Shown piece by piece: positions 340-29,370 of a stretch of DNA of 29,770 nucleotides (within the stretch, counting starts at the first letter, position 1; each line of letters starts with the position of its first letter). The notes beneath the pieces were generated by a model, which was not told the origin of the DNA, ran no database searches, and worked only from the letters and a program-made list of their open reading frames with translations. The stretch covers positions 1-29,770 of the IMG/VR virus record IMGVR_UViG_3300042320_000750; one strand, 5' to 3'. This DNA is from a virus. The translations under genes and the position numbers were made by a program.

Positions 340-1268
340 TTTTTTGCTCTCCACTGGTAGTAGCCCTTTGAATTCTCACGGTCCCAAACCTCGTCACCGA
401 ACTCAGGTTTGCCTCCACCATCCACGTACCGCTTCATGGCGGCGGTGAAGTAGTCGGCCCTGCGTTTCAGCATACGGATGGCGTTCATCATCTCGCCAGC
501 CTCAGTGTCATTCTCCGGGTCTGTCTTGAACTCCACGTTGTGTTCTCCTAGCTGCTTGTCAAGCTCAGAAACCGCAGAACAGTACGCCATGTGTGGGCAG
601 TAGAACTGTGTGCAGTGTGGTCCAATTACCGGCTCACCAGGCTGCCTTGCAAGCTCAGCTGTCAGCTTCTCCATGTGGGCCTCAAGTGTCAAGTGGTCCA
701 CGGTGATTTCGTCCATGTAGGCGTCGTCACCAAGGTAGCAGACCACCAGCTTGAACTCCCTGGGAGCCTTGCCGGTTGCCATGTAGTAGGCACTGGCAAG
801 CGTCAGAAGCTGCTTGCGAGCCCCAGCGCCGCCGCCAGTCTTCCAGTCCAGGACAACCACTGAGCCGTCAGGCTGCTCCACAATCAGGTCTGCAGAGCCA
901 TGCATAAGGCCGTCAGTGGGGTAGTCTCGGCCAGATACCGACCCGTAGACCTGCCCAGTAACGGAAGGCTCCATTCCCATGGCAACCTCAAAGAGCGGCT
1001 TACCACCGGCCTTCATGTACTTGGTCACAATGGCGTTAGCTGCCCGTACCATATCCGCCTCTTCGTCAGTCAGGCTGGGCTTGAACATTGGGTCAGACCA
1101 GGACTTGTGAATGGCGTCATGGACCCTGGTGCCAGAGTCGCGCTTGGAAGTGTCACCCAGCGTGTCGTCATACCATTCGGCCCCGACCCGTCTCCAGTGG
1201 TTGCATGGAGACAGAATCAGGGCCGAGTAGGATGCGCTGGGCTGGAAGATGTCCAGCCGGCGTTTCAT
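336..1268 (-). CDS. PD-(D/E)XK exonuclease, Cas4/RecB-like, with probable Fe-S cluster
   Basis: This 310-residue protein has the ordered motifs of a RecB-family nuclease: His50/His54 in GTRVHDAIH, Asp127 in GSADLIV, Asp141-Trp-Lys143 in VVLDWKTG, and a Q...Y helix (Gln153-Tyr161). Cys22 near the N-terminus and Cys219, Cys224 and Cys230 near position 220 are placed like the split cysteine set that binds a 4Fe-4S cluster in Cas4 and AddB. It probably resects DNA ends to give single strands. It lies directly after the SSB-like and ERF-type genes (TGATG junction), so a role in phage recombination or replication is likely. The Fe-S cluster is inferred from cysteine spacing only. No CRISPR array or cas genes are present, so this is not a CRISPR locus. 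Confidence 0.85.
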   Translation of the reverse strand: MKRRLDIFQPSASYSALILSPCNHWRRVGAEWYDDTLGDTSKRDSGTRVHDAIHKSWSDPMFKPSLTDEEADMVRAANAIVTKYMKAGGKPLFEVAMGMEPSVTGQVYGSVSGRDYPTDGLMHGSADLIVEQPDGSVVVLDWKTGGGAGARKQLLTLASAYYMATGKAPREFKLVVCYLGDDAYMDEITVDHLTLEAHMEKLTAELARQPGEPVIGPHCTQFYCPHMAYCSAVSELDKQLGEHNVEFKTDPENDTEAGEMMNAIRMLKRRADYFTAAMKRYVDGGGKPEFGDEVWDRENSKGYYQWRAKK

Positions 1269-6046: not shown

Positions 6047-6619
6047 TTAGCGGAGCTTCTCTTTGTCCCAGCCAAGGTGTGCCTCTGCCCAGTTTTCAAT
6101 GGTTACAAGCTGACTGGAGTCGCAGTCCATGCACTGGTACTTCTCGTACCTGCTCTTGTCAAACACTTCTCGGACACCAACCTGGGTACCAGGAGTAAGC
6201 ACGAGACAGTCTCCGTCTGACGACACGAACACGAAAGCGTACCCAATCGGAACGTGCCTTGTCTCGCCCTGCTGCTCGCCAAACTTCCTCACCCAAGCGT
6301 TCTTTGAGCACACCAGTCTGCGAGCGTACACAGACAGCTCGGCAGTTGTTTTGTTGGCCGACTTTACCTCTAGTGAGCACTTTTCAAAGAATGCCGACAT
6401 CTGGTCGTCAACACCAGTTGGTGACGCTCTGCCAATAACAAGGTCTGAGCTTCCGTAGAAGTCGGACATTTTGTCCTCCTTCCCAGCAATCTTCAGCGCT
6501 GGGTGGAGTACGTCATAGCCCATGCGTGACAGCTTACCGGCAACCCATGCTTCCCAGTAAGCGGCTCCGTCTGCACGGTCCACGAAGGACTTGGTTATTC
6601 TCGGATGGTAGCCCTTCAT
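6047..6619 (-). CDS. Putative PD-(D/E)XK nuclease-like protein
   Basis: The 190-residue protein shows a plausible PD-(D/E)XK core: an N-terminal helix (YWEAWVAGKLSRMGYDV, with Glu23), a strand with Asp59 (SDLVIG), then CSLEVKSAN with Glu84 and Lys86. This E-x-K signature after a DLV strand is typical of endonucleases and Holliday-junction-type enzymes. The C-terminal part (CLVLTPGTQVGVREVF) may be a further beta section and contains a C-x-x-C pair (CMDC). It would be the third nuclease-like gene in this block. The family is not recognised, and the fold call is an inference from motif spacing. Confidence 0.6.
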   Translation of the reverse strand: MKGYHPRITKSFVDRADGAAYWEAWVAGKLSRMGYDVLHPALKIAGKEDKMSDFYGSSDLVIGRASPTGVDDQMSAFFEKCSLEVKSANKTTAELSVYARRLVCSKNAWVRKFGEQQGETRHVPIGYAFVFVSSDGDCLVLTPGTQVGVREVFDKSRYEKYQCMDCDSSQLVTIENWAEAHLGWDKEKLR

Positions 6620-7473
6620 TCGCTCTTGCTCCTTCCTCCGGACGTTTGGTTTTCCTTGTCCTCAAACAGCGCTGCGTCTTTGCGCAGGTTCTCTTCGTGC
6701 CAGTTTTTCAGCCACTCCAGACAGACCGGACTTGCGGCCTCCCAGGAGTACAGGCTGTACGCTGCATACCTCTGCGCACGCTCCATGAACTTGGCAAGGT
6801 CCTCCTTGTAGAAGAATCCCGGAGCCTTCTGGGCGAACACGCTTTCCTTGCCGTAGGAGCAGCCAATGGGGCTGATTTCGTACTCCTCCAGACGACGCTT
6901 ACGCTCATCCCACTTGTCCCACGGGTTCCCGGGAACCTCTGCCATGTCATTGTAGTTTCCTCGTAGCAGCTCCGTCCAGTACAGCTGAGGGTGAGTGTCG
7001 CCAAGGATGGAAAACTCATTGTAGGGCCATTGTGGGTGGTACTGCAGCCATGACAACGGTGCGTGAGCCAGCTTGTCCATGAACGGCTGTCCGTAGTTGG
7101 TTAGCTCGGCAACAAGCGAAAGGGCCTCCTGTTTCTTGCCAGTCCACTCAATCTCGGCATTGATGATGTGGTTGCGGAAACCGGCATCCACCACTTCTTT
7201 GATGAATGTGGCCTGCTTTTTGGAGTCTCTCGGGTAGCAGTACGCCCAGCTTACCGGACGGATATCGTTCCGCTCGCAGGCAAGGATGAACTCACGGTAA
7301 CCGAACGGGCCACCAGACTTCATGTGCCACTTGTCGTGCTCACCAACACGCAGAGCACACCACTTCACCCCGCGCTGACGCATCTCGTCCAGCAGGTAGA
7401 ACCACGACTGATTTTTGTGAGCTGCAGCATGGAAGGCAACCCACATGCCAAAGCCAGTAATACGGTCACTCAT
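6616..7473 (-). CDS. TIM-barrel glycosidase-like protein, candidate endolysin
   Basis: The 285-residue protein alternates strands and helices in a way typical of a beta/alpha barrel: GFGMWVAF, VKWCALRVGE, RPVSWAYCYP, HIINAEIEW, LSWLQYHPQ, PQLYWTEL, ISPIGCSYG and YAAYSLYSWE. The fourth strand carries acidic residues (NAEIEW) where barrel glycosidases such as GH25 muramidases place catalytic carboxylates, and the last ends in SLYSWE. It could be a cell-wall hydrolase. It lies close to small membrane and lipoprotein genes that look like lysis genes. No signal peptide or wall-binding repeat is seen, and the last 25 residues are charged and probably disordered. Muramidase identity is an inference. 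Confidence 0.55.
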   Translation of the reverse strand: MSDRITGFGMWVAFHAAAHKNQSWFYLLDEMRQRGVKWCALRVGEHDKWHMKSGGPFGYREFILACERNDIRPVSWAYCYPRDSKKQATFIKEVVDAGFRNHIINAEIEWTGKKQEALSLVAELTNYGQPFMDKLAHAPLSWLQYHPQWPYNEFSILGDTHPQLYWTELLRGNYNDMAEVPGNPWDKWDERKRRLEEYEISPIGCSYGKESVFAQKAPGFFYKEDLAKFMERAQRYAAYSLYSWEAASPVCLEWLKNWHEENLRKDAALFEDKENQTSGGRSKSE

Positions 7474-7914: not shown

Positions 7915-8079
7915 CTACTTCTTTTTTCCGAATCTCTCGTCAAGCAAGAGCTGTGCCTTACGGTTGTTCTCCTGGACGTCCCACTCGGAAATGGCGGTCT
8001 GCACCGTGTCTCGTGGCAGGAGGTGAAGGGCCAGGTTCAGCGCCTTCAGGCCAAGCTCCAGGATGGCATCAGGGCTCAC
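7915..8079 (-). CDS. Small helical protein (54 aa, GTG start)
   Basis: The GTG at 8079 is the only start in this frame, because a stop lies two codons upstream. It overlaps the end of the lipoprotein gene by 11 bases. The product reads SPDAILELGLKALNLALHLL, then a Pro break, then a charged helix ending in GKKK. The first helix is amphipathic and the second is strongly charged, so the protein may bind a membrane surface or a partner protein. It has no recognised family. Confidence 0.5.
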   Translation of the reverse strand: MSPDAILELGLKALNLALHLLPRDTVQTAISEWDVQENNRKAQLLLDERFGKKK

Positions 8080-8335
8080 ACTTCACCCACTTCCCGTTCA
8101 CGTTGCAGAAGCCCCACTGCAGGTTCACGCTAGCAATGCAGGACTCGGCAGAGTCACGGGTAGGCAACGCTGCGCAGGAGGCCAGCTGGGCTGCGTGAGC
8201 GTCCTTTGGCGGAATGGAAGGCGGAGAGCTGCAGCCAGAAATGGAAGCAACCACGGCAGCCATGATGATGGCATACGCAAGAATCTTCCCAAGAACCAAC
8301 CCAGTCGGGTTGGACTTCACTCGGCATCGGGCCAT
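8069..8335 (-). CDS. Small secreted lipoprotein (88 aa), possible outer-membrane spanin
   Basis: A positively charged N-terminus (MARCRVKSN) leads into a hydrophobic segment (about 13-30) and a lipobox-like SISGC, with the acylated Cys predicted at position 35. The mature part is about 54 residues, starts with a Ser/Pro-rich stretch (SSPPSIPP), and has four Cys that could form two disulphides. Small, Pro-rich lipoproteins next to holin-like genes are typical o-spanins in phages of Gram-negative hosts, but no i-spanin partner is obvious, so this role is tentative. The start is supported by AAAGGAGG just upstream and a TAATG overlap with the preceding gene. Confidence 0.65.
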   Translation of the reverse strand: MARCRVKSNPTGLVLGKILAYAIIMAAVVASISGCSSPPSIPPKDAHAAQLASCAALPTRDSAESCIASVNLQWGFCNVNGKWVKCEP

Positions 8336-8595
8336 TACTTGTCCTCCTTTCTATCCACAAGCACCGGGCTTGGGATGACAACGGCAATCAGGTACTTCAC
8401 GTAGGATGAGTCCAGCTTACCAGAGTACACGAGTGCACATACACCAACAAAAACGGCGGTGAACACAATGGCTCGGACAAGGTCAACGTCTAGGGATAGC
8501 TTAGTCATGCGGATTAGCTTAGATAGTAGCTTCTCTTTGCCGTATACGCCAATGCTTGCGCGCACCTTGGTCTTTTTGTTCTGGATGGAAATCAT
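8335..8595 (-). CDS. Small membrane protein (86 aa), holin candidate
   Basis: The protein starts MISIQNKKTKVRASIGV with a basic region of about 40 residues. A clear membrane span follows (LVRAIVFTAVFVGVCALVY), then a short polar hinge and a second hydrophobic segment (VKYLIAVVIPSPVLV), ending in a charged tail (DRKEDK). One certain and one possible membrane segment fit a class II-like holin. Its position between another small membrane protein and a lipoprotein supports a lysis role, but holins have no sequence signature, so this is inference. The start overlaps the upstream stop (ATGA). Confidence 0.6.
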   Translation of the reverse strand: MISIQNKKTKVRASIGVYGKEKLLSKLIRMTKLSLDVDLVRAIVFTAVFVGVCALVYSGKLDSSYVKYLIAVVIPSPVLVDRKEDK

Positions 8596-9716: not shown

Positions 9717-10085
9717 TTAGCCCTCCTCAATCGTGATGTCGCCAACCTGGAATCTTGCACCCTCACCCGAGCCAATGGAGACCGGGGTAACGTCGCCGTA
9801 GTACAGCATGTTGCCACCAGAAACAGCGTCAAAGATGGCAACGGACACAACTGTACCCCAGGACGTTCCAGCAATGCCAAAGTCGGGAGCGTCAGTGTTT
9901 GAGGTTACCCCGAGCGCAGGAACACCAAACGTGACGGACTGCCTGGCGTATCCACCGCCAGAAACCTCAGTTCCGGGAGCAACGTCAGTGCATGCGGTCG
10001 TGTGAAGGCTGACATAAACGGTACCAGTTCTCAGGTACGCGTTGATGACAATGTCTTCTAGGTAGTTGCTTTTGCCGGACGCCAC
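9717..10085 (-). CDS. Phage structural protein, tail fibre-like beta domain (122 aa, GTG start)
   Basis: The product shows a layout seen in small phage structural proteins: a helical start (NYLEDIVINAYLR) followed by VYVSLHTTAC, then GTEVSGGGYARQSVTF and TSWGTVVSVAIFDAVSGG with a final strand-rich end. Phage proteins with 'YVxLHT...GTEVSGGGYAR...F.....WG.....IFD' are usually annotated as tail fibre or hypothetical structural proteins. The start is GTG. No enzymatic residues are evident. It is one of three consecutive beta-rich structural genes here. Confidence 0.75.
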   Translation of the reverse strand: MASGKSNYLEDIVINAYLRTGTVYVSLHTTACTDVAPGTEVSGGGYARQSVTFGVPALGVTSNTDAPDFGIAGTSWGTVVSVAIFDAVSGGNMLYYGDVTPVSIGSGEGARFQVGDITIEEG

Positions 10086-10493: not shown

Positions 10494-11132
10494 TCAGGGT
10501 TGGACACAAGGATTCATTGGACGGTCACATTTGTTGGCTCGGCAGAATTCTTCCAAGTCTCTGGACGCCAGGCAGGGCGCAATTTCTCGGTATCCGGCCT
10601 CCATGACGCAACTTCCACTGCACTGGATGTGGTGGGCCCCGAGAACATGTCCAAACTCGTGGATTGCAATGAGTTTTTCCATGTCACTGTCTTCCATTCG
10701 GTCACGAATCAGCACAACCTTCACCCCGAAAGGTCCCGGGCCGTAGATTCCGCCAGGAGGAGACGTAAAGGCAAGGTGGTAGGAGCTTGTGGTCTCGTCT
10801 AGGTACTGTACGAACGGGTCGTCACCGTCAGCCTTGAGAAGGACATGGTGAAACTCGTGTCTTTTTGGTGCGGTTGGGTCTGAATGGTTCACGTCCCATG
10901 TGAAGGTAATGGAGACCATTCCATTGGTTGCCCTTTCCCACTCCTTGGCTGCCCCCAGAATCGCTTTCCGGTCTTTGGCAGTAAAGGACATGTCCGCATG
11001 GAACGGAAGCTCTACGGTCGGTCCTGGGGGCCCTGGCTCCTTTGGTCTAGGGCTGCATGACGGGGTGAACAGGACGTACAGGCACACAATGTAGCACAGT
11101 GCTTTACTGATCAGATTGCGTAGGTGTTGCAT
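10494..11132 (-). CDS. Secreted matrixin-like zinc metalloprotease (lipoprotein-like leader)
   Basis: The start at 11132 (MQHLRNLISKALCYIVCLYV) is preferred: GGAGAG lies about seven bases upstream, and the longer frame only adds Arg-rich sequence inside the preceding gene. The 212-residue protein has a hydrophobic leader ending near Cys26 (TPSC, an imperfect lipobox), then a Pro-rich spacer (RPKEPGPPGP). It then has a metzincin-type zinc motif HEFGHVLGAHH (158-168), with three zinc-binding His and catalytic Glu159, followed by CVM as a possible Met-turn. Matrixins are rare in phages. It may cut a host surface or capsule protein, or process virion proteins. Six Cys in the C-terminal part suggest disulphides and an extracytoplasmic site. 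Confidence 0.8.
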   Translation of the reverse strand: MQHLRNLISKALCYIVCLYVLFTPSCSPRPKEPGPPGPTVELPFHADMSFTAKDRKAILGAAKEWERATNGMVSITFTWDVNHSDPTAPKRHEFHHVLLKADGDDPFVQYLDETTSSYHLAFTSPPGGIYGPGPFGVKVVLIRDRMEDSDMEKLIAIHEFGHVLGAHHIQCSGSCVMEAGYREIAPCLASRDLEEFCRANKCDRPMNPCVQP

Positions 11133-13461
11133 ATGGGCTCTCCGTGATTCCGGCCTTTCCTGCCGGCGATGACGACTGCGACTCTTCCTGTTCCTTGGCC
11201 GCCGCAGCTTCCGCATAGGCTTCCTGGTTACGTTTGATGAACTCTGGCTCCATAACCCTGTCCACCGGCTCTCCAAGAAGCAAGCTCAGCTCAACAAGTT
11301 TGGAGGCATGGATACCATTTCCAGACATCTGCACCTTTGCAACACTGTCTCTCACTGAATTCACAATTTGTCTGTGCAGGTCCTTCCAAATCGTTTTAAA
11401 CGTGTTAGCTTCGTCTTTGCTGAGCGCTCCGGACATAAGCGCTTTGATTGCGGCGGTCGGGTTGCTGACGATATTCCAGGTACGAACGGCGTTTAGCTGG
11501 TCCCTGGTCAGTACGGACGACTGGTAGGACTTTCTCATACTACCTAGCTTGGCCGAATTCGCAGCCGAGATACGCTCTCCAACCATCGCGACCGACTTGT
11601 CGTAGTTCGCCATCACGGACTTATGCAGCTCAGGCGATGGGGATAGTCTGCCCACGTACTTGGTGAGCGCCTCACGGTACGACGGGGAAGAAACTCTGTC
11701 GTACTCCTTGAGAATCTTCTTGTAGGAGGCCGGCGTAGGAGTCTCCATGTGGTGCTGCTTGGTGGCAACCTTTCCTCCAGTAGTCAGGAACGCAGTTGCT
11801 GCCTTTCCCGCAATCTCCGCAGTGGACTTGGTCATGGCAGCAAGCTCGCCAGAGATGGCCATTCTCTCCATGGCCTCTTTCACGTGTGGACCGTTCAGTA
11901 CGTACCTGGCAGCTCTTGCTGCGCTGTAGCCAAGGGCTCCAGCGATTGGGTTAGTGGCGGCCCCAATGGCTGTTGCGTAGGCCATGTCCGAGAGCGCTTC
12001 AGAGATTCCACCGGCTGCAGCTGCTGGCTGCTTTTTGAACAGCTCACCAGCCTTGGCTGCATCAAGGATACTCTCGTTCATGGAGCGCTTGAGCATGGCT
12101 GCCCTTACGGCTTCAGATGAGCCAACAGAGTCAATCTCAGTGGCAATGGCTGCCCTTACGGCGTCCGACTTTGCCATGTTGTAAATCTTCAGAACACGCT
12201 CACCGTCCAGCGTCTCTGGCATGTTTGCCCTTTCCAGTCTGCTTGCTAGGCCAGAAATCTTGCCAGCCTCAGCAGCGGGTGCGGGAACGGTAGGAGTGGG
12301 ACCTGGAACCCAGCCGTCACCGCCAGTGAATGACCTTGGAGCGCGAGCCTCTCCGGGCATTCTCTTTGGGGTGGTGAATGACGACATATCTCTCGGGCGA
12401 GGAGCAAACACAGCTGATTCGCCGGCCTCAGCCTCTCTGATGGCTCCAACAATTCTTGCCTTGGTGATTTTTACGTCTGAAGACCCGAGAGCGGATACAA
12501 GCTCGTTCTTTGCCTGCGCAATGTTCTCTTTTGCCTTAGCCACGACATCAAACTTGTTGTCAATACCGGAGAACTCCTTGGCCGCAATGGACTCGTACTC
12601 CTTTGGCACATTCAGCTTCTTGGCCAGCTTCTCTTCAACCTCGTTTGCGAACTTGGTGGACAGCTTCTCCCCAACCGATTCCAGACCCTCAGCGGCAAGT
12701 CTTCCACCGATACCGAGACCGGCACCAAGGAAGAACCCGCCACCAGTATGGGCGGCAAGAGCGGCAGCCGTAAGCGGCTTGTCGTGAAGCGTGGCGTCAG
12801 AAACGTAGTTGCCGGCGGAGTAGATGGCTCCGTGAGCGCCATTGCCAAGGCCGGCGTTGATGATGCGATTAAGCTTCTCTCCCCTTCCAAGGGATGCGGC
12901 AGCGTCAGCCGCAATGGCCTCGCCAAGGGCTCTTTCGGCAACCCCAACACCTTCCCTAGCGGCAAGCTCTGCGGATACGTCTACGGCCTCCCTGAGGCCA
13001 AGCTTCTCGGCAATACCAAGACCCTTCAGAGCGATTCTACCACCCTGAACTGCCTCCTCCACTGGAATCATTGCGGAGGCGGCTAGGCCTAAACCGTGAC
13101 CAATGGTTTCCGCGTCACCGGTTCCAGCACGCTCCATCGCAAGCTCTCTGGACTTGTTCCACTCGCCAAGTCCAAACTGCCCATTCGTAAGAGCGTCACC
13201 GGCCTCCAGCGCCTTCTGGATGGCAAACGGAGCCATCCCAAGAGACACCTCCGACGTAACGCCACGGTAGTAGCGTTCTGCTGGAGACATGGTCTTGTAG
13301 GTGTCAATGTCCTTGTACATCTGCTTTGCAGACTGCTCAGACACAACCGTATCGTTCTTGCGTAGAGAATTTTCTCCGATGACCTTCGGCATTCCGCCGT
13401 CGTCAACAACAACGGCCTTGCCACCATCTTCGGCAAAGTCCTCAGGGGAGAAGTCACCCAT
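11104..13461 (-). CDS. Large internal virion/DNA ejection protein (785 aa)
   Basis: This long Ala-rich helical protein starts MGDFSPEDFAEDGGK. It has two glycine-rich hydrophobic regions that could insert in or cross a membrane: near residues 240-265 (GGGFFLGAGLGIGG) and near 500-530 (ATNPIAGALGYSAARAARYV). Coiled segments and a Pro-rich linker (PGPTPTVPAPAAEA) separate them. Such proteins are packed in podophage heads and pass through the tail to build a channel in the host envelope. Its N-terminus matches that of the upstream gene product, suggesting a common targeting signal. No lysozyme or peptidase motif is visible. The start overlaps the upstream stop (TAATG). Confidence 0.75.
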   Translation of the reverse strand: MGDFSPEDFAEDGGKAVVVDDGGMPKVIGENSLRKNDTVVSEQSAKQMYKDIDTYKTMSPAERYYRGVTSEVSLGMAPFAIQKALEAGDALTNGQFGLGEWNKSRELAMERAGTGDAETIGHGLGLAASAMIPVEEAVQGGRIALKGLGIAEKLGLREAVDVSAELAAREGVGVAERALGEAIAADAAASLGRGEKLNRIINAGLGNGAHGAIYSAGNYVSDATLHDKPLTAAALAAHTGGGFFLGAGLGIGGRLAAEGLESVGEKLSTKFANEVEEKLAKKLNVPKEYESIAAKEFSGIDNKFDVVAKAKENIAQAKNELVSALGSSDVKITKARIVGAIREAEAGESAVFAPRPRDMSSFTTPKRMPGEARAPRSFTGGDGWVPGPTPTVPAPAAEAGKISGLASRLERANMPETLDGERVLKIYNMAKSDAVRAAIATEIDSVGSSEAVRAAMLKRSMNESILDAAKAGELFKKQPAAAAGGISEALSDMAYATAIGAATNPIAGALGYSAARAARYVLNGPHVKEAMERMAISGELAAMTKSTAEIAGKAATAFLTTGGKVATKQHHMETPTPASYKKILKEYDRVSSPSYREALTKYVGRLSPSPELHKSVMANYDKSVAMVGERISAANSAKLGSMRKSYQSSVLTRDQLNAVRTWNIVSNPTAAIKALMSGALSKDEANTFKTIWKDLHRQIVNSVRDSVAKVQMSGNGIHASKLVELSLLLGEPVDRVMEPEFIKRNQEAYAEAAAAKEQEESQSSSPAGKAGITESPYATPTQSDQ

Positions 13462-17690: not shown

Positions 17691-20600
17691 TTAGGCTTTC
17701 TGGCCAGATGCAAGTTGCGGGCCAGTGTTTTTGGCCGCGATTTTCCAGGTGATACCAAGCACGTCACAACCGGCACCGTACCCAACTGGGTATGTCACAG
17801 TGTCGGCTGGGGCGGCATCGTTCACTTTTAGCTTGACTGAGCAGTTCACCATCTTGGATGGCTGCAGGTTGAACTCCTCAAGCGGGAGAGACACGAAGGT
17901 TCCTGGCTCCCAGGTCTTGGTCTGCGTGTAGCCTCCGTAGTCGTAGGCGAAGCTCATGGTGAGGGCGTGGTTGCTGTCTGCGAGCTTCTTGGAAAGGAAG
18001 AACGCATCAAACACGCGCTGGCGCTCGTGAGGTCCACTGGTCTTCTTCCATGATGTCTCAATGGTGAATGGAACGTAGTAGGTTCCGTCGGTCTTGGTGG
18101 TGGGGCTTGCGGTGTATGTGTAGTCCGCCCAGTCTGCGTAGACGGTTCTCTGGACAGAGTCATTCGCAGTGATTGCCTGGCAGATGCCCTGGAGGCTGTA
18201 GCCATATCCGCCAGGAGATCCGCTAGGCGTGTACTTGGCGGTCGTCCACATGTCCAGACCGATGTCGTAAACAAGCTCCTCACCGGTCCCGTAGAAGGCC
18301 CCCGTAGAGTCGTACGTGCTCGCAACAAGGTACTTCACGAATGAGCCGGAACGGTTGAACGTGCAGCCAACGGTGTACTGGTTCGCGTTCACGCTGGTTT
18401 GCACTCTCTCACCAATCCAGAGCACATCCAGTCTACGAGATAGCAGCTCAATGCCGCGCTGCGAGCGGAACATGATTCCGGTTGGAATGGTCACGATACT
18501 GTTTACCGAAACGCATCCGATGTCAGCGCTCACCCTCTGTGGAGAAGAGAACTCTGCACCGGAGCCGCCGTTCTCCGGAGGGCCGTCTCCATCAACCACA
18601 AAAATGGAATCCTTTTTGAAGATGACGAGCCTACCGTCAAGGCTTGCAATGGCCGTTATTGGGCCGGTGCCTCCGTGAATGAAGAAGCTGAACTGAGGGT
18701 TGAACCAGGCGCTCTCCCCGTCCACGAAGAAGCTGCTGTAGTAGACCTTGGAGCCGTACGCATCGGCCACAAACAGCCTGTCACGGTGCTGGCAGACAAC
18801 GGACGTGCCTGGGGGAGCGTGGCGGTCTAGGGCACCACCAGGGCCAAGCAGTGGCTGCCTGTACATCTCTGGCTGAGACTGCAGAACAGCGTCTGTCATG
18901 ATGTCATTCATGAACAGGTTGGGAAGCGTCTGGTCAATTACCTGGACGCCAGGAGGAAGTGTTGACCCGTCGGTCGGCACCTGTGAGGAGCCGCACAGGT
19001 ATAGTCTCTTTCCTCCAACAACGGTCCTGTAAACCTCAACCTGTACCTGATAGTCCGCGCTTCTTCCTGACTCTCTAGCGGTCATGTGGCAGGCGAGAAT
19101 GTTGACCTCAATCTCCTCTGAACCTGGTGCAACCGTAATGGAGTACGGACCAAACGTTCTGCTGAGCGCAACGTTTCCGGATGAGTCAAGGTGTCTGTAC
19201 ACTACAACATAGTTGTGCAGGCCAGGGTCAACGCCACCGGCAAGAGCCACTGCGGTGAAGTCTGCAAGCGGGTAGTCAACCATCCCGCATTCAAAAGCCC
19301 TATCAGCATCATACTGCTGAGTGCTTCCGGCTGACGTAACAAGCTCGCTGCCAAACGCTGCGGTGGACCAGCACATGTTAGGGTCGTTGATTCTTAGCTC
19401 ATGGATACCGGCAATGCCCGAGCGCTGGCTTGGGTTGTTTGGTGTAACAAGAGTAAGGTTTACGCCGTCAGCACTGAGCGCCCTGTATCTTAGTGAGTCT
19501 GAGGAGAAGAACGGGGCCTCGTACAGAAGTGGAGTGGTTACCCTGTATGCGTTGTAAAGCTCAAGGCTAGCAACTGGCCTAAACGTATTAAGCTCCGCGG
19601 CCAGCGCACCAATAGATGTGGATGTTGGGTCGGAGATGCACGCAAGAACATGTGGCGCAAGCGTGGCAGGGGTGTGGTTCACCGTGTCCGCCGTGTCGGA
19701 CTTCACGAGGTGCTGATAGAACTCCCTAGAGCCGGACATGTACAGCGGCTTGCCGAATACCTCCCATCCGAAAACCTCGGAAGACAGGGTTGGGGGCGTT
19801 GACGCGAGGATGTCGGCGGAATAGTAGACTCTAACCTTCCTAGTGGTGGTGCTACCAAGGTTGTGAGATGTGCTTTCGGACAGGTAAAGAGAAACACCGG
19901 CAGCGGTGGAGCCGATTGCAATGTCAGCGCGCGCGGAGTTGATGGCTCCGCCAACGGCAGAGATTGCGGTAACTACTGTTCCTGGGGTAATGGCAGCATA
20001 AACCGCAAAGTCCGAACCGCTCGGACCGCTTCCGAACGCTGCTAGGTAGGTTGCGGAGACTGAGATGCTCCTAATTTCAACCCATCCGTCAGCAACAAGG
20101 TCGTACTCGGTGTACGCTCCGGCGTTCGTGAGCGTGTCAATATGGGTTCCCCAAGACACGAGTGACGTTCCGTTCACCTCGTCAGTGGCAATGTCGGTAA
20201 TTGGGTCACCGGCAAACGCTGCGGGTCCGGTGTACGTAAACCCGGTAGCATCGTCTGGCCACTTCGCCCAGGAGTCGTGGACGAAACTTTTGATGATTCC
20301 AGCTGCGTACGCGTGGCAGTGGAAGTATCTGTCTCCCACGAATGCCATCTTGATGCCGGCAGAACCGGCTCCCGCGAATCCACCAGCATCGGTTGGAACG
20401 TCGTACTTGGCAATCAGCTGCCCGTTGCTGTAGATGGCCAGTGCAATCGTGAGGTCGCCATTGGTGCCCCTGGGAGACTCGTAGGCAACAGCCGTGTACA
20501 CGCTGCTGCTGGCAACACCAAACACGCGCTGCCCGTCCTTCAGCGGCCTAACGGACGAGCTGACGATGTTGCGGGAGCGAATGCTGAACTCGCAAATCTT

Positions 20601-28851: not shown

Positions 28852-28861
28852 CCACACTTTG

Positions 28862-28933
28862 CTCACGAGGCAGGATTCGGACCTGCATAACCATGGTTAA
28901 CAGCCATGTGCACTACCATTGTGCTACCCGTGA
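28862..28933 (-). tRNA. tRNA-Asn (GTT)
   Basis: The 72-base minus-strand cloverleaf has a seven-pair acceptor stem (TCACGGG with CTCGTGA, one G-T pair), a D arm with GCAC and GTGC, and the anticodon stem CATGG/CCATG with loop CTGTTAA (anticodon GTT, Asn). A five-pair T-stem (GCAGG/CCTGC) completes it. The T-loop reads TCCGAAT, so C replaces the usual T at position 55. The CCA end is not encoded. It is the tRNA closest to terL. Confidence 0.88.
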
Positions 28934-29079
28934 AGGTTGCTTCCCGACCCAAGTTGACGAACACCGACCAGGGTGTTCCGTCCGGAAGTGAGGTGTGGAC
29001 TTTCCCACCAGTCATCAGGTCCCGGCATTGCTTTCGCCATGCTTTCTACTTGGTCACCCAAGTGAGCTTCGGCCTTCGG
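28934..29079 (-). ncRNA. Unassigned hairpin-rich segment between tRNA-Pro and tRNA-Asn
   Basis: This 146-base gap is much longer than the other inter-tRNA spacers (16 to 41 bases). On the minus strand it can form ACTTGG-GTGA-CCAAGT (29048-29063), GCATgGC-GAAA-GCaATGC (29025-29042), GTGG-loop-CCAC (28995-29008) and GAACACC-CTGGTC-GGTGTTC (28959-28978). GTGA and GAAA are GNRA tetraloops, common in structured RNAs. I know of no family that matches. A 38-residue ORF (MAKAMPGPDDWWES) overlaps this segment and is the alternative explanation. Confidence 0.45.
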
Positions 29080-29152
29080 TCAGTGATGTAGGATTTGAAC
29101 CTACGCAACCCGCTTCCAAAGCGGGGACTCTACCAGGCTGAGCTAATCACTG
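29080..29152 (-). tRNA. tRNA-Pro (TGG)
   Basis: This canonical 73-base minus-strand cloverleaf has a perfect seven-pair acceptor (CAGTGAT/ATCACTG), D arm GCTC/GAGT, and anticodon stem CCCGC/GCGGG with loop TTTGGAA (anticodon TGG, Pro). The T-arm is GTAGG-TTCAAAT-CCTAC. The discriminator base is A and CCA is not encoded, so the host or phage CCA-adding enzyme would complete the end. Confidence 0.92.
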
Positions 29153-29193
29153 TTGCGATTGCATGGGCACAACTAGGTTTCCCGTGCAATCAG

Positions 29194-29267
29194 TACCGCA
29201 AGTAGGATTTGAACCTACACTGTACACGTTCTAAGCGTGCTGTCTCCTGCCATTGGACTACTGCGGC
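29194..29267 (-). tRNA. tRNA-Leu (TAG), short variable loop
   Basis: The 74-base minus-strand cloverleaf has an acceptor stem GCCGCAG/TTGCGGT with two G-T pairs and a three-pair D-stem (GTC/GAC) with a long loop, as in leucine tRNAs. The anticodon stem is GCACG/CGTGT with loop CTTAGAA (anticodon TAG, Leu CTA codon), and the T-arm is GTAGG-TTCAAAT-CCTAC. The variable loop is only five bases, whereas bacterial tRNA-Leu normally has a long arm. The identity is read from the anticodon alone. Confidence 0.85.
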
Positions 29268-29286
29268 TTGGCCACTTTTGTGGCGG

Positions 29287-29370
29287 TGGGTCGTCCTGGT
29301 AACGCTCCAGGCGGGCACATTGTACGACTGCTTTACAGGCAGCCCCGCCTCTTTAGCGGACTACCGACCC
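29287..29370 (-). tRNA. Divergent tRNA-Tyr (GTA)-like RNA
   Basis: The minus strand can fold an 84-base cloverleaf. It has a six-pair acceptor (GGGTCG/CGACCC), anticodon stem GCTGC/GCAGT with loop CTGTAAA (anticodon GTA, Tyr), and a long variable arm with its own stem (GTAC-AAT-GTGC), as in bacterial tRNA-Tyr. The T-stem is CCTGG/CCAGG. The D arm (TCCGC/GCGGG) directly abuts the anticodon stem and the T-loop reads AGCGTTA instead of the TTCGAAT type. It may be a divergent tRNA or a decayed copy. Confidence 0.55.

Follow-up and report, generated by a model that had tools for sequence, protein, structure and literature searches.

Results

The window, by which we mean the whole 29,770-nucleotide stretch of viral DNA analyzed here (IMG/VR record IMGVR_UViG_3300042320_000750), contains at positions 10494-11132 on the minus strand an open reading frame of 212 amino acids that begins with an ATG at 11132. 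The frame, its predicted parts and its neighbors are as follows; counts out of 22 refer to the family alignment described below.

10494..11132, minus strand: metzincin (matrixin-like), a putatively exported, probably lipid-anchored protease of 212 aa (Pfam, family alignment, AF2 model and fold comparison)
11055..11132, minus strand: signal peptide and lipobox region, residues 1-26, with Cys26 the likely lipidated residue (judged from the sequence, its hydrophobicity and where the Cys lies; similar in 17 of 22 sequences)
10629..10661, minus strand: zinc-binding and catalytic motif HEFGHVLGAHH, residues 158-168 (HExxHxxGxxH kept in 22 of 22 sequences)
10602..10604, minus strand: Met177, the Met-turn methionine (position read from the sequence; a Met follows the motif in all 22)
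10497..10574, minus strand: Cys-rich C-terminal segment C187-C209 (signature CLxxxDLxxFCxxNxC of the podovirus-like group)
11104..13461, minus strand: upstream gene c7, 785 aa, a probable internal virion protein (identity by position only)
9717..10085, minus strand: downstream fibre or head protein (PF23140 gp80-like, phrog_240)
8335..8595, minus strand: c20, a small membrane protein (likeness to a holin by appearance only)
8069..8335, minus strand: small Cys-rich lipoprotein of 88 aa, like c22 of related phages by eye

An earlier note on this DNA had read HEFGHVLGAHH and a downstream Met as the metzincin signature and had pointed to a Cys-rich C-terminus, and both readings held. Glu159 is the catalytic position of the motif, Met177 is the first Met downstream of it, and six Cys lie between residues 171 and 209 (Cys171, 175, 187, 197, 202 and 209), the last four of them in the tail. 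At the other end of the protein, residues 2-22 are a predicted helix, and Cys26 stands after this hydrophobic stretch in a lipobox-like TPSC, the -3 position of which is atypical (judged without a trained predictor). A short Pro-rich linker follows between the Cys26 region and the catalytic domain. Because just 13 residues separate Cys26 from the first strand of that domain, the window protein lacks an N-terminal MMP-type prodomain with a cysteine switch. These export and anchor signals agree with the note's description of an exported or lipid-anchored protein, and on this sequence evidence the window protein is very likely both exported and anchored.

A DNA pattern for HExGHxxG followed by 26 residues and D[LI]xx[FL]C had a single match in the window and no match in 100 dinucleotide shuffles. 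Homologues occur at the same genomic position in related phages, and 10494-11132 is therefore a real gene and not a chance open reading frame. The window protein (P0001) had no match in PHROGs, isolate-phage records or plasmids and matched no NCBIfam model. It matched Pfam Peptidase_M10 (PF00413) with an E value of 2.5e-4 and 21.4 bits, below the curated cut-off of 24, and the copy of the same gene in contig G001 scored 19.8 bits against that cut-off. The homologues in G003, G004, G006, G008 and G009, five of the six homologue-bearing contigs, passed it. Since the window protein falls under the cut-off, we describe it as matrixin-like and do not file it as M10; the earlier description as matrixin-like thus stands for the nearest fold neighbor, which is a matrixin, but not for a strict M10 filing.

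An AlphaFold2 model of the window protein, built with the 22-sequence alignment, had a mean pLDDT of 91.8 and a pTM of 0.81. The best solved match to the model in a Foldseek search was karilysin (4in9, E 2.3e-7). VIA-align 2 placed karilysin 2xs4 at Z 14.7 (rmsd 2.8 over 146 residues, 18% identity) and human MMPs at Z of about 13. Karilysin and matrix metalloproteases headed the PDB entries listed for the model, a snake-venom metalloprotease came further down, and the family profile matched MMP-16, MMP-1 and karilysin around the active site (E 2e-10 to 3.5e-9). Structure prediction, the check that had been proposed for this protein, thus returned a model with the metzincin core and not the fold lacking it that had been named as the contrary outcome. 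The protein is almost certainly a metzincin; its modeled fold is matrixin-like, and catalysis is predicted. Fibroblast growth factor receptor 4, which headed a single-sequence PDB search (E 0.002), was judged a chance match because it covered residues 137-208 only and was missing both from the best 60 matches of the profile search and from the matches listed in the fold searches.

Viral contigs were searched with the major head protein, so as not to select for the protease. The search returned nine loci in nine records. Two of the loci come from the window's phage or from a near-identical one: L004, and L003 across the stretch where it overlaps. A protease homologue was present in six of the nine records, and the remaining three (G002, G005 and G007) stop before the protease position. 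G002 ends at the equivalent of window base 18312, and the sequence downstream of the head gene amounts to about 5.3 kb in G007 and about 11.2 kb in G005 (for which the early end is judged from this distance), where the window needs about 11.6 kb to reach the protease. The window and G001 close a circle of about 40 kb. Across the six phages, protease identities were 20-41% compared to head-protein identities of 62-78%, and the two sets correlated (Mantel r 0.77, a value reached in 4 of 720 permutations of the six phages). These parallel but much lower identities suggest that the protease gene was inherited along with the virion genes and is fast-diverging. In the related phage G004, a second small metzincin gene, with HEIGHVLGLPH, lies close to the end of the contig (L081, G004:C1:1-1700, approximately 611-682, minus strand).

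The placement among virion genes that the earlier note had reported is correct and is conserved in related phages. In the window the protease lies on the same strand as the terminase, portal and major head genes, and its start overlaps the end of c7 by 29 bases; in all 10 podovirus-like loci it lies downstream of c7 on the same strand. In three of the 10 loci (L028, L029 and L032), c20 directly follows the protease; in the window the two are about 1.9 kb apart, and several genes separate the protease from the first that encode membrane proteins. The c22 gene lies a short way downstream of the protease in L028, L030, L031 and L032, and L027 and the window have genes that look like it; the look-alike in the window, the Cys-rich lipoprotein at 8069-8335, could be a partner, an inhibitor or an o-spanin. 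A GH25 gene (c14) starts about 2-3 kb downstream of the protease in six of the 10 loci, on the opposite strand in five of those six, and Pfam confirmed GH25 in all five tested.

No endolysin was identified in the window. The frame at 6616-7473 on the minus strand is a candidate for that role but was left unassigned: it belonged to no family, had no profile match to GH25 proteins and gave a poor model (pLDDT 47); it encodes a conserved protein of 285 aa with 46% identity to L025. A crude hydrophobicity scan of the whole circle of about 40 kb gave no convincing type II membrane gene for an i-spanin, and no TIMP-like gene was recognized as a partner of the protease. Elsewhere in the window, a cluster of four tRNA genes (Asn, Pro, Leu and Tyr) lies at 28861-29370 on the minus strand.

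A first search for the wider family gave at least 23 viral loci. The family alignment (A2) holds 22 sequences, namely the window and 21 other loci; L002 is the window's phage, and L039 was left out because its locus had a match read in a second frame. The identity of A2 members to the window protein was 19-36%, and in all 22 the HExxHxxGxxH motif was followed at a short distance by a Met. A lipobox-like Cys was present in 17 of the 22, and the other five, which are distant relatives, had an N-terminal hydrophobic helix alone. All 22 matched PF00413 at E ≤ 1e-3, and none matched a PHROG or a PADLOC model. Queries with P0001, L026, L034, L043 and L045 against 50,697 isolate-phage records found no relative, and a query with L040 against the same records returned only an unrelated reductase gene (E 0.5). 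Searches of viral DNA with two patterns gave 8 and 9 matching stretches, part of which lay in contigs already found.

The contigs that carry the family range from podovirus-like phages of about 40 kb to contigs of up to 480 kb. In a profile search of 19 records, 12 had one match, five had two (G017, G019, G023, G025 and G027), G018 (198 kb) had four and G020 (394 kb) had seven. The additional copies examined retain HExxH, with the exception of L075, which gave no such frame and has an internal stop. Read from the tree described below, the G020 copies are both old lineages and recent duplications, because the G020 label needs five changes in the tree and three copies form a G020-only group.

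To judge which of these records are phages, three markers were considered. The terminase model phrog_2 matched in seven of the 19 records, including G023, G024 and G028; PF03237 matched in none of 12 records tested; and a tail-sheath match below the cut-off was seen in four of 12, including a weak one in G020 that is the only marker there. The terminases in G023, G024 and G028 and the weak sheath match in G020 support their being phages. None of the three markers was found in G015, G016, G017, G018, G021, G022, G026 and G027, so that the viral status of these eight records, among them G018 with its four profile matches, is that given by the IMG/VR classification. G016 and G021 have neighbor genes in common with the terminase-bearing G023 and G024.

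In the larger contigs, the neighbors of the protease gene are presumably RNA-ligase-like, DNA-methyltransferase-like and phosphatase-like, names that we gave by motif and not by systematic annotation. The genes that we take to be RNA-ligase-like (KxDGxx motif) recur near the metzincin in many phages (for example L065:11370-11966, minus strand; clusters c4 and c18). Two arrays of small genes were also observed. In IMGVR_UViG_3300032328_001458 (239 kb), 24 tandem genes of 101-128 aa lie beside the metzincin (L045:811-8900, minus strand). Most of these overlap by 1-4 bases, all 24 products start with a zinc-ribbon-like CxxC...C and most end in (L/I)IFS; no signal peptide was seen in them, and Pfam gave only weak zinc-ribbon matches. 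The second such array, in IMGVR_UViG_3300047994_000374 (394 kb, seven metzincins), comprises 17 small genes (L040:1930-7934, minus strand), of which 15 start with CxxC...C and most end in a residue followed by FL; its architecture is that of the first array, and its sequences are different.

Cellular relatives were sought in a genome collection. The DNA pattern with the 26-residue spacing had one match there, L064 in a Saprospiraceae MAG, which was rejected as a family member: it is a 928-aa frame that scored 21.9 bits against the phage profile, over the active site only. An earlier DNA pattern, which catches just three of the 23 known loci, had no match in the collection. Because the 26-residue pattern omits the 25-residue spacing, confinement of the family to phages is suggested only. 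The profile was also run against 296 genomes from the phylum to which L064 belongs, the sole cellular phylum profiled; no match there exceeded 49 bits, a score reached over part of the domain, and the A2 members among the 19 profiled records scored 141-219 bits. The best NCBIfam model for the family overall, yet not for P0001, was NF041905, the MXAN_2677/2678 metalloprotease family, which 13 of the 22 members matched at E ≤ 1e-3; for this reason, cellular relatives closer than those sampled may exist. From its name we take NF041905 to be cellular and myxosortase-dependent.

In the tree, the 12 best Bacteroidota (cellular) loci split from 40 phage sequences with support of 95/89, and this split was present in 94% of bootstrap trees. 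The tree has many long terminal branches, 11 open forks and an arbitrary root, and was used only for the cellular split and the G020-only trio. Six of its viral rows derive from the DNA-pattern searches, and L060 (a fragment with Leu where others have Met), L075, L081 and L050 (from the same contig as L080) are not in it.

Discussion

What is new here is a coherent family with its own C-terminal signature and a fixed place in a podovirus-like lineage, one that is missing from PHROGs and the isolate records searched and is multiplied in large phage contigs. These phages probably use the metzincin on the envelope or the surface of the bacteria that they infect. The roles offered in the earlier note, the cutting of host surface proteins, matrix degradation and superinfection exclusion, are still conjecture. 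The reading that we prefer, to which we give somewhat less than an even chance as a whole, is that of a late, anchored metzincin that cuts envelope proteins and thereby aids lysis and release. A zinc endopeptidase of matrixin-like fold would be made late, together with the virion genes, as the position of its gene suggests. It would be exported by the Sec route and then lipid-anchored (or held by an N-terminal helix, as in five of 22 sequences), which would place the catalytic domain in the periplasm or on the cell surface. By cutting proteins of the host envelope or surface as infection ends, the enzyme would then weaken the envelope and make lysis and release easier.

Lysis and release is ranked first, the shaving of receptors second and the degradation of matrix third, because the nearest experiment is that on Mtz of Listeria. 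The lysis role itself is a tentative assignment by analogy, and several observations weigh against it. In the window, several genes stand before the first that encode membrane proteins, and no endolysin was identified; in five of its six loci, GH25 is encoded on the other strand from the protease. No TIMP-like partner was identified, and the Listeria arrangement is different in that Mtz is secreted and Tim is lipidated. Since the neighbors seen in the larger contigs are not lysis genes, a single lysis role may not fit the whole family.

In the main rival reading, an anchored protease would instead destroy phage receptors or other surface proteins and thereby keep new virions from being captured by the dying cell and its debris, a form of superinfection exclusion or anti-readsorption. 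The lipid or helix anchor fits such a function, as do the low protease identities relative to the capsid, expected of a host-facing protein, and the several divergent copies in single large contigs, up to the seven of G020, with the catalytic motif kept in those examined. The end of a virion operon, however, suggests late expression, and rapid divergence may be mere drift; we regard surface shaving as a credible but rather unlikely explanation. Digestion of host matrix or biofilm protein after lysis, which would free progeny, was proposed for the 199-aa lipoprotein metallopeptidase of phage Molly by the authors who described it (PMC8776804), and the matrixin-like fold is in keeping with it. 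A lipid anchor would nevertheless hold the enzyme at membranes, and the Colly protein is no close relative, its profile match being restricted to the active site, so matrix degradation appears unlikely.

Two further explanations are less probable still. The position inside the virion gene cluster, overlapping c7, would suit an enzyme of virion maturation, or one carried in the virion, with a role in trimming phage proteins or in entry. The hydrophobic N-terminus with a lipobox Cys or a membrane helix in 22 of 22 sequences would, however, remove the protein from the cytoplasm, where heads mature, which makes this role very unlikely. That the gene is an inactive or regulatory relic acquired from a host might be supposed from the many matrixin-like genes of bacteria (PF00413 matched in 10 of 14 control genomes). 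We consider this hardly plausible, given that all catalytic residues are kept at such low identity to the window protein and that in the tree the phage sequences are separated from the 12 best Bacteroidota matches.

If the late envelope protease that we prefer does act on the envelope, it would offer a testable answer to how some phages without recognized spanins break open Gram-negative cells; it would also be a new source of enzymes for bacterial surfaces. A protease route of this kind is conceivable because 91 of 677 phages are without a recognized spanin (PMC6139136). In its boldest form, the idea is that phage-specific anchored metzincins constitute a protease-based breach of the envelope, replacing spanins in phages that lack them by cutting proteins that keep the outer membrane or surface layer in place, and that large phages have expanded them to sets of up to seven. 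This is speculation, and we think it improbable as it stands.

Comparison with known systems

Metzincins are among the best-studied animal proteases. Karilysin of Tannerella forsythia, a bacterial matrixin, shares with the phage protein the metzincin fold and the type of zinc motif. Unlike karilysin, the phage protein is small and lipoprotein-like with a Cys-rich C-terminal tail, and the sequence similarity is confined to the active-site region. The nearest functional analogue is the spanin of the Rz/Rz1 type, in which a phage outer-membrane lipoprotein acts at the last step of lysis; spanins are not known to be enzymes.

Phage metzincins were already known as annotations, as the fold search showed for Lactobacillus phage 3-521, Maribacter phage Colly_1 and an uncultured Caudovirales phage. 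The best phage matches in BFVD were the Zn-dependent protease of Lactobacillus phage 3-521 (E 6e-8) and a Peptidase M10 protein of the uncultured Caudovirales phage (E 1.9e-6); they differ from the window protein, with 16% identity and Foldseek TM-scores near 0.5. The remark in the earlier note that secreted proteases are rarely described in phages was fair, if short of two cases in print (PMC8776804 and PMC8235301), beyond which we found no phage metzincin described in the open-licence PMC literature. The section consulted of a jumbo-phage review (PMC7824862) mentions only other zincins.

The first of the printed cases is Mtz of Listeria monocytogenes, which PMC8235301 describes as a phage-derived secreted metzincin encoded downstream of the holin-lysin genes in prophages. 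It cleaves a lipoprotein partner, Tim, and Mtz together with Tim raises sensitivity to lysis in a manner that requires the catalytic Glu (PMC8235301). By that description, and not by sequence, Mtz resembles the window protein as an exported metzincin of phage origin, in its case beside lysis genes. It differs as an accessory gene of Gram-positive prophages with a TIMP-like lipoprotein as partner, where here the protease itself looks like the lipoprotein.

The second case is the 199-aa lipoprotein metallopeptidase of Maribacter phage Molly (PMC8776804). The matrixin family metalloprotease of Molly and Colly (MT732450, Colly1_9) is, like the window protein, a small phage lipoprotein with HExxHxxGxxH. 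The Colly protein has a lipoprotein-like start and HEIAHVLGLGH, matched structurally in BFVD (E 7.3e-5) and scored 25.5 bits against the family profile, over profile positions 144-175 of 208, around the active site only. It differs in being without the Cys-rich tail and in coming from a flavobacterial myovirus. Anchored phage metzincins have thus far been mentioned only in passing in the literature that we found; here an uncultivated podovirus-like lineage encodes such a protein in a conserved gene, and such genes occur in large phage contigs, often in multiple copies.
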